NCBI GenBank assembly: GCA_012862575.1
Contig: BLSF01000051.1
Span: 124,001-188,000 of the forward strand
DNA length: 64,000 nt
Source of the DNA: Parietichytrium sp. I65-24A
Lineage: Eukaryota > Sar > Bigyra > Thraustochytrida > Thraustochytriidae
Direction of reading: 5' to 3'
Part shown: one piece after another, positions 14,960-60,968 of the stretch
How the letters are laid out: each line of letters starts with the position of its first letter
Position numbering within the stretch: the first letter of the stretch is position 1
Notes under the pieces: model-generated
Database searches by the model: none
What the model saw: the letters and a program-made list of their open reading frames with translations, nothing else
Told to the model about the DNA's origin: nothing
Program-made: the position numbers and the translations under genes

Positions 14960-16768
14960 ATGGCTAGGTTTAGTTTCGCCGTCAAGGCATTCTGCGCGGT
15001 TGTCGCTACAGCAGCGACCCAAAGTGCCGGCCAGGCGCTTATGCGATCAACCTCGGAGTGGAGCTTGTACGGCGGTACAACCGAAGGTGTCCAGTTCGAT
15101 ATGTAAGTTCACGATTCTCGGGAGCGAGCCATCAAGTGGTGGAATGACCACCTTCGAATGCAGAATGCTGACACTGACAATCCCGTCTTTCCTGTTCCGA
15201 ACAGCTCAACGAGCATTGTCGACATCAATGCGAACCCGCGCTGGGCGCGATTCGTTATTACTATGGGAGCAGGCTATGACGTCCAGCCTATGATTCGTGG
15301 AATGGGTCTTTACCTGATGAACCCGAACCTGTTTTGTGGTAGCGGCAGTGGTTGCGTCCCAACACCAGATTCGTCATCGTATCCATCGGGGTCTTTCTAT
15401 CCATACCAGGCTTCAAGAAAGATGTTCGTTTCCATGAACAATGGGAATGCAGGAAGTGGTGTGTCGTATTGCCGTGTTGCACTGTACAATGATTACTGCA
15501 GCACCAAGAGTACTTGCGATGCACTTGGATGGACTTCTGCAGCTACTCGTTTTGCATCTGACACCACGAACACCGACTACCATATCGTGAAGGGTGCAAA
15601 GCTCAACGGGTTCACCATCAATTCTCTTACCAAAACTCGCACAACCGATTCCAATGGCTTGAGACAGTACACGAACGTGCTCGACATCAGTATTCCCGAC
15701 GACTTCTTTCTGTGGGACTCGAGCGAGGACGACACTTACCTTTTGGGTCTGACCAGCGGGGAGACCAGGTACCTTACCTTTGGACTTTGGCTTTCCACCA
15801 GCACTCAATCCTCGTGCACTGAAAGTGATCATAGAGCAGTCTTTGGGGCATTGCCAGATATCACATTCTCATTTCCTTGGACTGCTACGAGAGAAGATCA
15901 GTTTGAAGGATCCTTTGTCGCGCTTCCACAACCAACTGTGGCGCCATCAAAGAGTCCAACAATGGCACCGACCAAGGCTCCAAGCAAGTCTCCAACGAAA
16001 GCACCAACTACCGCTTTCCCAACAAAAGCACCAACCACTGGAGTTCCAACCAAGGCACCTACCAAATCTCCGACCAAGGCGCCAACCACTGCTTTTCCAA
16101 CAAAGGCACCTACAACTGGCGTGCCTACGAAGTTTCCAACCGAGTCCCCGACCAAGAAACCAACCACTGCCAGCCCAACCAAATCCCCAACGACTGGTTC
16201 TCCAACAAAGTCCCCGACGAACTACCCGACATTGGCTCCGATCCCGTTTGTATGCCCAGAGGAGCGCAACTGGGAGCTTTGCACACGTATCAACACTTGG
16301 TACAAGCACATTGACGATCCTGAACGCCGTGCCAAAAACATCGAGCGTTCCTGTGAAAGCTACAACTGCTACTACTGCGGCTTTGATGTCGGCGAGGTGA
16401 ACTGCCGTCCGAAGAAGCCATCGGACACCACTTACTACGGAAAGTACGCCTTTCTCCAAGTTTGCCCGAACGACCAGAGCGATCCTTTTCTTGCCGCAGA
16501 TTGCGAGCAGTTTCCGAACTGCCCAACTGCAGAGGAGATGACTGGATGTCGCATGATCAACGATGAGGGTGGTCCGTCGTACAAGAAGTCTCGCTGCGAG
16601 GGCGAGTTTACCCAGACCATCAATGGTGTTGAAGTCACTATCGAGGCGAAGAGGTGCGCATACAACAACGGTATTTGCCGTGCCGTCGGCGAGTATTACT
16701 GGGCGAGGAAGACCGTCACCAACATCCCTGGATTCTTCGACAAGATCAAGGGGTGTGAGTACGCTTAA
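14960..16768 (+). CDS. Secreted protein with PT-repeat linker and Cys-rich C-terminus, one intron
   Basis: Exon 1 is 14960-15102 and exon 2 is 15205-16768, about 568 residues in all. The 102-base intron starts GTAAGT, ends AACAG and carries TGCTGAC as a likely branch site. Splicing joins an N-terminus with a signal peptide (MARFSFAVKAFCAVVATAAT) to the main body, which otherwise lacks a good start. Residues about 48-300 form an unrecognised globular domain with paired cysteines. A linker at about 310-410 is built of Pro-Thr units such as PTKAPTKSP and PTTAFPTKA. The C-terminal 150 residues are rich in Cys (CPEERNWELC, CESYNCYYCGFDVGEVNC), probably disulphide-bonded. PT-rich linkers of this style are common in secreted and wall proteins of stramenopiles. 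A role at the cell surface is inferred. Confidence 0.8.
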
Positions 16769-57749: not shown

Positions 57750-58034
57750 CTATTTTTCAGTAAATCTTGTAAAAAAATTCACGACTTTCTTTACAAGAGT
57801 TTCTTTTTTTACTCGATCATAAAGTACAGACAGCCTTCGGCGGTCGTCGTGCTTGAGAGTGGCGGCTACCAGAGCCAGGGTTGTTGTGAACTCTGTAAAC
57901 TCAACGTTAGTTTTACTATGCAGAAACGTTTGCGTGCCGCGAAGATTCAGCAGCAGCTGCCTCAGAGAAGAGAGGTTCATATATTGCATTGGTGCCCCGT
58001 TGGCAAGTTCGAAGCTCTGCAGCAGCATGGCACT
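57750..58034 (-). other. Open frame continuing after the TGA of the fused actin
   Basis: After the actin TGA (58037-58035) the same frame stays open for 94 codons (SA, then MLLQSFELANGAPMQYMNLS...) to a stop at 57750. It is charged and helical in its second half (DDRRRLSVLYDRVKKETLVK). It could be a tail made by stop read-through, a separate small gene starting at 58028, the remnant of an earlier longer protein, or chance in a 3' region. No family is recognised. Confidence 0.3.
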
Positions 58035-58101
58035 TCACGTTATGACAGTCAAACAGTCAGCGCACTTGCGATGGACGATGGATGCGCCAGACTCGTTGTA
58101 C

Positions 58102-58135
<34 letters not shown>

Positions 58136-60311
58136 GGTGGGAAGCAACGATGGACCCTCCGATCCACACTAAATACTTGCGCTCTGGTGGAGCGACGACC
58201 TTGATCTTCATGGTGGGAGGAGCAAGGGAAACCATCTCCTTTTCGAGGCGAGCAGCGAAGCCCTCGAACATGGTGGATCCACCAGACAAGACGATGTTGG
58301 CAAACATGTCCTTGACGATAAAGATGTCGCACTTCATGATGGCCTGGAACAAGGTCTCGTGGACTCCGGCAGCCTCCTTTCCGATAAAGCTTGGCTGGAA
58401 AAGAACCTCTGGGCAGCGGAAGCGCTCGTTTCCGAGGGTAACGACGTTTCCGTCATGGAGCTCGTAGCTCTTCTGGAGGGAAGAGGATTCAGCAGCGAGC
58501 TTCATGTCATCATCGAAGTCAAGAGCGACGTATGCGAGCACCTCCTTGATGCCACGCGCATTCATGAGGTCAGAGGTGTTAGTGGTGTTGCAGCGGTAGC
58601 CCATTTCGTTGAGCAATCTAATCATGAAATCGGTAAGGTCGCATCCAGCAGCTTCAACCAGCATGACAGCGTGTGAGATGACATAGCCGTCGTAGACTGG
58701 CACGGCGCAGGTCACACCATCACCCGAGTCAAGTACAACACCGGTGGTACGGCCGGAAGCGTATAGGGAGAGAACTGCCTGGATGGCGACGTACATGGCT
58801 GGCACGTTGAAGGTCTCGAACATGATCGTAGTCATGCGTTCGCGGTTAGCCTTTGAGTTGAGAGGAGGCTCGATGAGGAGAACTGGCTGCTCCTCTGGGT
58901 TCACGCGGAGCTCGTTGAAGAAAGTGTGGTGCCAGATCTTCTCCATCTCGTCCCAGTTGGTCACGATTCCGAGCTTGACTGGATCATTATGCAAGTGTCT
59001 GAGCCCATGCGGTCCACGCCCGGACAGAGCCTCATCACCGACATAGGTGTCATTACTTTGATTCCTTGCCCTGTCCACGATGGTTCGGAACACCGCGCAA
59101 GGAGCGTCATCTCCAGCGAATCCGGCCTTGCTTATGCGGGATCCGATCTCGATGACGAGTGCCTGGGCCTTGATCTCTTCGTCAACGATGGATGGGTCAC
59201 ACTTCTTGTACTCCTTCTTGGAGATCCACTTGTGCAGGAAGGTGGGGAGGGAAGCAACGATAGACCCTCCGATCCAGACTAAATTCTTGCGCTCTGGTGG
59301 AGCGACGACCTTGATCTTCATGGTGGGAGGAGCAAGGGAAACCATCTCCTTTTCGAGGCGAGCAGCGAAGCCCTCAAACATGGTGGATCCACCAGACAAG
59401 ACGATGTTGGCAAACATGTCCTTGACGATAAAGATGTCGCACTTCATGATGGCCTGGAACAAGGTCTCGTGGACTCCGGCAGCCTCCTTTCCGATAAAGC
59501 TTGGCTGGAAAAGAACTTCTGGGCAGCGGAAGCGCTCGTTTCCGAGGACAACGACGTTTCCGTTAGGGAGCTCGTAGCTCTTCTCGCGGGAAGGGGACTC
59601 AGCAGCGAGCTTCATCTCAGCATCGAAGTCAAGAGCGACGTATGCGAGCTTCTCCTTGATGTCACACGCAATCTCGAGATCAGAGGTGTTCGTGGGGTTG
59701 CAGCGGAAGCCCATTCCCATTCCGTTGAGCAATAGCAATTCAATCATGAAATCGGTAAGGTCGCATCCAGCAACTTGAACCAGCATGACAGCGTGTGGGA
59801 GAGCGTGTCCTTTGTAGATTGGCACGGCGCAGGTCACACCATCACCCGAGTCAAGTACAACACCGGTGGTACGGCCGGAAGCGTATAGGGAGAGAACTGC
59901 CTGGATGGCGACGTACATGGCTGGCACGTTGAAGGTCTCGAACATGATCGTAGTCATGCGCTCGCGGTTAGCCTTTGAGTTGAGAGGACGCTCGGTGAGG
60001 AGAACTGGCTGCTCCTCTGGGTTCACGCGGAGCTCGTTGTAGAAGGTGTGGTGCCAAATCTCCTCCATGTCGTCCCAGTTGGTTACGATTCCGCGCTTGA
60101 CTGGATAATGAAGCAAGTGTCTGAGCCCATGCGGTCCACGCCCGGACAGAGCCTCATCACCGACATAGGTGTCATTACTTTGATTCCCTGCCCTGCCCAC
60201 GATGGTTCGGAACACCGCGCGAGGAGCGTCATCTCCAGCGAATCCGGCCTTGCATATGCGGGATCCGTTGTCGATGACGAGTGCCTGGACCTTAATCTCT
60301 TCGTCGGCCAT
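58035..60311 (-). CDS. Tandem actin fusion: two divergent actins in one frame, 758 aa
   Basis: Residues 1-376 and 377-758 are each a nearly complete actin. The first begins [17 protein letters not shown] and ends [14 protein letters not shown]; the second starts at once with [20 protein letters not shown] and ends [18 protein letters not shown] plus eight residues. Conserved parts are present in both halves: [23 protein letters not shown](Y/F)[29 protein letters not shown] then [22 protein letters not shown] and [10 protein letters not shown]. Changes from ordinary actin include a DNase-I loop shortened by about 7 residues ([12 protein letters not shown]), Arg for Gly in the first phosphate loop (GSR), Cys for His after GDGVT, and in half 2 Glu-Ile for Asp-Asn before GSR. 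Polymerisation may be altered. There is no linker. Confidence 0.93.
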
Positions 60312-60968
60312 TTTCCAGTGTATTTCTCACCTGCCCTGCGACTTGCTGCTGTCTTTGGCTCTCGTTGCTTCTTTGTTTGCGTTTATGCGGTGGTGCTTGA
60401 ACTAGGATTCTCGCTCTTCTCATTCATCCGTCATTGCTTTCGAGCGAGCTCACCTTCTCCAGCGTTGCTGCTCTGCTCCGCACATGTTAATCCAAAACCC
60501 TGAAAACTTAAACCTCGCGGTCAATGTTCCTCTAAAATATACTTGTGAACGATAGTCTTCCCTTATCAGCGTTTCTGGACCGTGCGTCCGCGTGCAAAGT
60601 CTTATATCCAAGCTGTTGTGATTCTACTAGGAATGCAGACAGCAAGCTGTTTATCGTGCACACGTTTGTCTCCATCCTCACACCTTCCCACCTTAGCGCA
60701 TTCCATATCCATACACATAAGAGCTCAGCAAGATCTTGTTTTGAGCATTCTTATACTGCCAGTACGATAGCGTTTAGTAGCTCGAATTCCTCCTACATTC
60801 ATACACACACTCAAGGATGCTCATGTGCTCGACTGCCGACGTTATACATTGGATACTCTTGGAGTAGACTTCGCTGGAAGAAATGTTGTTCAATTTGGCA
60901 CATTACGTGATCGTGCGCTCTCTCGCTTCGTTTAGTTCACAAAGATTCAAATTGTGCGGATTTGTGAG
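60312..60968. other. Intergenic stretch, upstream of the fused actin
   Basis: The promoter region of the actin gene. No conserved gene is visible; the frame at 60545-60910 has no recognisable content. Confidence 0.45.

Follow-up and report, generated by a model that had tools for sequence, protein, structure and literature searches.

A 758-codon frame with two actin domains in Parietichytrium sp. I65-24A and its likely origin by internal duplication

Few known proteins are as strongly constrained as actin. In its conventional form, represented in the genome of Parietichytrium sp. I65-24A by the loci L001 and L002, it consists of one domain with a full D-loop. Some predictions with two actin domains are listed in protein databases, and the parts of the open-licence PMC literature that were searched yielded no account of a tandem actin in nature. 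The Fgr transforming protein of feline sarcoma virus, which presumably carries a piece of actin, is a natural fusion of a partial actin with a kinase, whereas the gene described here joins two actins; the viral protein gave a weak fold match (TM 0.29, 48% identity over 189 columns). Another divergent actin is ActM of Microcystis, which we take to be single-domain. This actin, transferred to cyanobacteria, assembles into short, ribbon-like polymers rather than into ordinary filaments, but it is of the ordinary type and is not described as doubled in the consulted sections of the report (PMC3254629). Chlorarachniophytes have natural ubiquitin-actin fusions, which are likewise in-frame fusions with actin in the excerpted account (PMC6332867). 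The partner is ubiquitin in those fusions and a second actin in the present gene, and no Pfam match to a ubiquitin domain was found in the double actin frame at E 0.001. Finally, the cross-linked actin dimers Q41-C374 (cited in PMC7664232) and 191-374 (PDB 2q36) are covalent too, but they are held by laboratory side-chain links and not by a peptide bond from C- to N-terminus.

The window analysed here is a stretch of 64,000 nucleotides (C51:124001-188000) in a genome of 42,540,916 bases and 172 contigs. On its minus strand, an open reading frame check showed that positions 58035..60311 form a single frame of 758 codons, with an ATG start at 60311 and a TGA stop at 58035-58037. The Pfam Actin profile PF00022 matches this frame in two separate segments (788.3 bits in all, E 1.5e-237), in agreement with the original prediction of two actin units in one frame, and each half scored alone reaches 391.7 bits (half 1) and 401.7 bits (half 2), which excludes a chance match. 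Half 1 (59184..60311, minus strand) comprises 376 amino acids and is an actin domain without its final HRKCF, while half 2 (58038..59183, minus strand) comprises 382 amino acids and is an actin domain without its initial Met-Ala, followed by an eight-residue tail. The two halves abut directly, as predicted, at residue 376/377, with zero bases between them on the minus strand.

The findings that were expected to speak against a true double actin were a stop or an intron between the halves, or the collapse of two separate genes during assembly. At the sequence level, no stop lies between the halves, and an intron at the junction was rejected because there are no extra bases. Tandem near-repeats are prone to error, hence an assembly or read artefact that fused two actin genes has to be weighed. 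However, the join connects codon 370 to codon 3, two non-homologous places, which is unexpected for repeat collapse. In addition, 77 of 1110 bases (53 of 370 residues) differ between the halves, which is enough to distinguish them, and the frame continues through the join. Repeat collapse is thus not favoured, and an artefactual fusion of any kind appears very improbable. Judged as sequence, the feature is real and unusual.

A PF00022 profile search of the whole genome returned at least 19 actin-family matches. By match ranges, there is no second frame with two complete actin domains among the 19 scored PF00022 matches of this 42.5-Mb genome. A DNA search of the whole genome with the double gene and its flanks recovered at least the gene itself, L001, L002 and two weak matches. 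The ordinary actins L001 and L002 encode identical proteins and have four synonymous differences. These two loci (on C127 and C11, respectively) share 99% DNA identity over about 1.2 kb and differ in their outer flanks, which suggests recent copying or conversion. The 5′ flank of the double gene (60312..60355, minus strand) has weak similarity to the ordinary actin on C11, on which the DNA match and a MAFFT alignment agree and into which BLAST does not extend; the 3′ flank (57999..58034, minus strand), to the end of which the BLAST match does extend, resembles that of L001. Among the frames of the window near the double actin are matches to an Obg-type GTPase, to Rad52 and to a carboxylesterase, which together with the genome size point to a eukaryote; a frame at 15158-16768 of the window carries repeated KAPTKSPT-like stretches and perhaps encodes a cell-surface protein. 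The same contig contains, outside the window, an actin-like domain within a 1430-codon frame (L011, G000:C51:61015-62394), of which about 1220 codons are contained in the retrieved locus; its actin part was scanned against the profile, and its N-terminal part resembles calponin-homology and SAM stretches as judged by eye. Elsewhere in the genome, L007 (G000:C21:226386-227417) encodes a divergent actin-related protein whose C-terminal tail is rich in proline.

Like conventional actin, each half matches PF00022 over its whole length, and much of the ATP pocket is kept. Conventional actin is a single domain of about 375 residues, whereas this protein has 758 residues in two domains. It is closer to actin than to the three actin-related proteins compared, since half 1 is 77% identical to the ordinary actin protein L001 (75% for half 2) and 47, 37 and 44% identical to the proteins of L003, L007 and L009, all from the same genome. 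Relative to actin, both halves are longer by two residues behind E4/V5, by four behind K68 and by two close to position 200, and half 1 alone has four more inserted residues. The shortened D-loops of the original prediction were found in both halves: of the full loop (residues 39-51), seven residues (actin 42-48) are absent, leaving AGNQSND in half 1 (60171..60191, minus strand) and ARNQSND in half 2 (59049..59069, minus strand).

The phosphate loop is also altered, as had been noted, with G15R in both halves and D11E and N12I additionally in half 2. Both halves further carry H161C (codons 59829..59831 in half 1 and 58707-58709 in half 2, minus strand), R177L, R183C, D288F and R290V, and the halves have R or L at H73 and R or P at A108. 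Conventional actin thus differs from the double actin at G15, H161, R177, D288, A108 and H73. Kept in both halves are S14, N111, Q137, D154, G156-G158, K213 and K336, as are residues 251-277, which are unchanged and which we take to include the filament plug region. The pocket residues D11, S14, Q137, D154, G156-G158 and K213 are all kept in half 1. In the available portions of the structural literature, Q137, D154 and H161 are linked to hydrolysis, R177, N111, H73 and G74 to phosphate exit (PMC9646518), and A108 to the flip of H161 (PMC10062479). Of the six residues Q137, D154, H161, R177, H73 and A108, the first two are kept and the other four are replaced. Muscle actin with G15R, according to the part of the source consulted, still incorporates into stress fibres (PMC1779783). 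As a group, 12 listed hydrolysis and back-door residues showed no enrichment of change (4/12 in each half, p about 0.5; p values throughout are single-test values, uncorrected for the number of tests).

The longitudinal contacts of the filament were compared with the rest of the protein by means of a contact list taken from the accessible part of PMC7664232, of which 23 of 24 residues were usable, with residue 375 left out. Contacts were changed more often than other sites in half 1 (13/23 against 76/345, p=0.0006) and in half 2 (12/23 against 84/345, p=0.006). When deleted residues were skipped, the enrichment fell to 9/19 in half 1 (p=0.02) and 8/19 in half 2 (p=0.10). As controls, three actin-related proteins encoded in this genome gave p values of 0.67, 0.08 and 0.14 at these contacts; the second and third point in the same direction without reaching significance. 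Because longitudinal contacts are changed more than other sites, the double actin is unlikely to be a normal filament subunit, which supports the likely failure in ordinary filaments that had been proposed from the letters.

With respect to the fold, a model of half 2 built on a 15-row actin alignment reached a pLDDT of 82.8 and a pTM of 0.82, with pLDDT below 50 only at the ends and in residues 33-65, the altered subdomain 2. Its best Foldseek match was rabbit actin 2aso, with a TM of 0.89 (query) and 0.95 (target). Half 2 is the more damaged half, yet it is predicted to fold as actin. A model of the 758-residue protein built on a five-row alignment had a pLDDT of 43.9, unusable for placing the halves.

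The structure of the repeat bears on how the gene arose. The doubled unit corresponds to actin codons 3-370, with copy 1 at 59184..60305 (1122 nt) and copy 2 at 58074..59183 (1110 nt), both on the minus strand. Copy 1 includes an in-frame insertion of 12 nt specific to half 1 (approximately placed at 59721..59732, minus strand), because of which the spacing of the unit, otherwise 1110 nt, is 1122 nt in its 5′ part. ATG-GCC is missing from half 2, as are HRKC and the stop from half 1. Given the ends missing from each half, one internal duplication explains the structure in one step. The original prediction that the stop and start of a tandem pair had been lost is less likely, since a gene pair followed by a deletion needs two steps. 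One in-frame internal duplication of a divergent actin is thus the best-supported origin and accounts for the repeat more readily than the fusion of a gene pair. Relative to L001, a 9-nt deletion removed the stop, a 1-nt deletion occurred further along the tail, and the protein now ends in the eight-residue read-through tail ADCLTVIT (58038..58061, minus strand), which matches the 3′ flank of L001 in alignment.

Compared with L001, 83 of 364 residues differ in half 1 and 90 of 367 in half 2. Among the derived bases, 110 are common to both halves, 33 are private to half 1, 36 are private to half 2 and 4 are three-state. The excess of shared over private bases argues for a divergent single actin first and a doubling after. 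The two halves share 54 residue changes; at these sites, most of nine outside actins match L001 in 44 cases and the double gene in 9, with one tie. Most of the change appears to have occurred in a single-domain ancestor or to have been spread between the halves by exchange. Codon columns 262-347 contain only 2 half-to-half differences in 255 nt, as extreme as in 0/5000 shuffles, and the longest identical run between the halves is 141 nt (p=0.001). Such alike stretches suggest exchange between the halves. A run test of half against half on third positions alone was not significant (p=0.23), hence constraint may contribute to their alikeness. Conversion by an ordinary actin is not favoured as the source of the conserved parts: nearly every 25-codon window contains synonymous differences to L001 (between 0 and 6.5 per window), and there is no long stretch without them.

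It was also proposed originally that the fused protein could act as a filament nucleator or capper. In such a role the two halves would mimic two subunits and start or stop the growth of ordinary filaments. The unchanged residues 251-277 would be compatible with this role, and a protein with one damaged end would be expected to cap. However, the linker between the end of half 1 and the first strand of half 2 has about seven residues (DEEIKAQ), and the N- and C-terminus of actin both lie in subdomain 1. With this geometry, the linker looks too short for neighbouring positions, so the halves are unlikely to be neighbours in one filament. Furthermore, each half has an altered D-loop and an altered residue 288, so that damage falls on both longitudinal faces. 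A cap or nucleator is accordingly without support here and improbable.

The junction itself adjoins a cluster of changes specific to half 1, at actin positions 353-366 (59196..59237, minus strand), where 8 of 14 residues are affected (scan permutation p=0.0001). The eight half-1-specific base changes of this cluster are all nonsynonymous (8/8), and the net charge of residues 350-370 in half 1 went from -2 to +3. A second, weaker half-1-specific cluster lies at 191-210 (p=0.004). One reading of the cluster at 353-366 is an adaptation of the new internal junction; another is a local cluster of mutation or exchange. It could also fit an asymmetric covalent dimer in which labour is divided, half 1 having the better pocket and a remodelled basic junction segment and half 2 keeping the segment with a damaged pocket (D11E, N12I), and which would bind filament ends or actin-binding proteins without polymerising. 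This division of labour is an unlikely reading. If true, such a dimer would be a one-chain counterpart of the two separate actin-related proteins that cells usually use.

Whether the double actin is under selection or drifts was addressed from several sides. The pseudogene hallmarks of a premature stop or frameshift are absent: all 758 codons are open, and in a protein-guided alignment all net indels are multiples of three. In a simulation of neutral substitution with three transition biases, no stop arose in 0.27, 0.51 and 1.3% of 20,000 runs; for the stage after doubling only, the corresponding figures were 6.7%, 9.7% and 14.9%. Under assumed indel rates, 2.6-9.8 frameshifts were expected after doubling (P 0.08 to 5e-5), and no net frameshift is seen. 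Ka/Ks was 1.00 between the halves (Ks 0.073) and 0.71-0.79 against the ordinary actins. Nonsynonymous to synonymous changes stood at about 78:32 (about 2.5) on the shared branch, 27.5:9.5 (2.9) in half 1 and 31:9 (3.4) in half 2, the neutral expectation being 2.5-3.3 to 1. These ratios are near neutral, so even the early constraint was slight.

The placement of changes refines this picture. Shared changes favour the less conserved sites among the nine outside actins (MWU p=0.0016), and a test restricted to invariant sites was not significant (8/90 against 46/271, p=0.087). When three in-genome actin-related proteins served as yardsticks, shared changes gave p=0.015, 0.19 and 0.0004. Half-1-only changes avoid conserved sites (p=0.019), falling on invariant sites in 1 of 17 cases against 72 of 254 for unchanged sites (p=0.048). 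Half-2-only changes showed no avoidance of conserved sites (p=0.73), with 7 of 24 at invariant sites, the chance level (p=1), and the 12 sites where both halves differ showed no clear avoidance (p=0.14). Half-to-half differences do not avoid sites conserved among the nine outside actins (p=0.3), and they weakly avoid those conserved with the three in-genome yardsticks (p=0.084, 0.047 and 0.046). The early stage reads as lightly constrained and the late stage as relaxed in half 2, perhaps not in half 1. As read from substitutions and indels, the evidence for selection on the double actin is mixed.

A decaying duplicate, with an earlier role, redundant and drifting since the doubling, its frame a leftover and half 2 degenerating first, is a close rival, nearly as likely as the best functional reading and a serious if tentative possibility. 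It would account for the Ka/Ks of 1.00, for the disregard of conservation by half-2-only changes and, in the outside-actin test, by half-to-half differences, and for the open frame, since the late stage stays free of stops in an appreciable share of neutral runs. Moreover, exchange between the halves, as in the 255-nt stretch, can mask damage. Against decay stand the aligned halves without net frameshift (the expected number depending on assumed rates), the avoidance of conserved sites by half-1-only changes, the weak avoidance seen with the in-genome yardsticks (p=0.046-0.084) and the half-1 cluster at the junction.

No relatives were found in scans of the viral contig collection. Among prokaryote assemblies of the genome contig collection, 11 loci carry actins, which are contaminants or transfers; none has a matched frame longer than 444 codons, and none is double in that frame. 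L035 is truncated at a contig end, and the matched stretch of both L036 and L037 contains stops; the alignment (A4) covers 9 of the 11 loci, L036 and L037 being left out and L035 and L039 being incomplete. Shorter D-loops also occur in L030, L031, L033 and L038, H161 is absent in L038 and L039, and R177 is absent in L033 and L039. Single lesions of this kind thus occur elsewhere, and it is their combination, doubled, that is unusual. L030, L031 and L033 are actins with shortened D-loops in bacterial assemblies, L031 lying on a 2-Mb Thiosymbion symbiont contig and L033 in Spirulina, and they may be transferred actins in which D-loop loss was independent.

The functional reading that we tentatively put first, at somewhat less than an even chance, is that the double actin derives from a divergent actin doubled in frame, hydrolyses and polymerises poorly, and perhaps serves as a scaffold or competitor beside ordinary actin. 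A copy of an ordinary actin gene would have given rise to a fast-changing single-domain actin, which would have lost seven D-loop residues, acquired changes in longitudinal contacts as well as in several residues for hydrolysis and phosphate release, and had its stop read through. Codons 3-370 (1110 nt) would then have been tandemly duplicated in frame, giving two domains in one frame; the order of these steps and the single duplication event are themselves inferred. The protein would fold as two actin domains and hold nucleotide at least in half 1, as the kept pocket residues of this half suggest. Nucleotide hydrolysis would be poor or absent, and ordinary filaments would not be built. At a guess, the protein could act as a non-polymerising partner of the two ordinary actins, its kept surfaces being offered to actin-binding proteins or filament ends.

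From a natural tail-to-head double actin one could learn which contacts are dispensable in a fold that polymerises, and such a protein would show how easily mutation can lead to a fixed actin dimer, through one internal duplication. If decay is all that is happening, the gene nevertheless illustrates how an actin copy escapes constraint in ordered steps.
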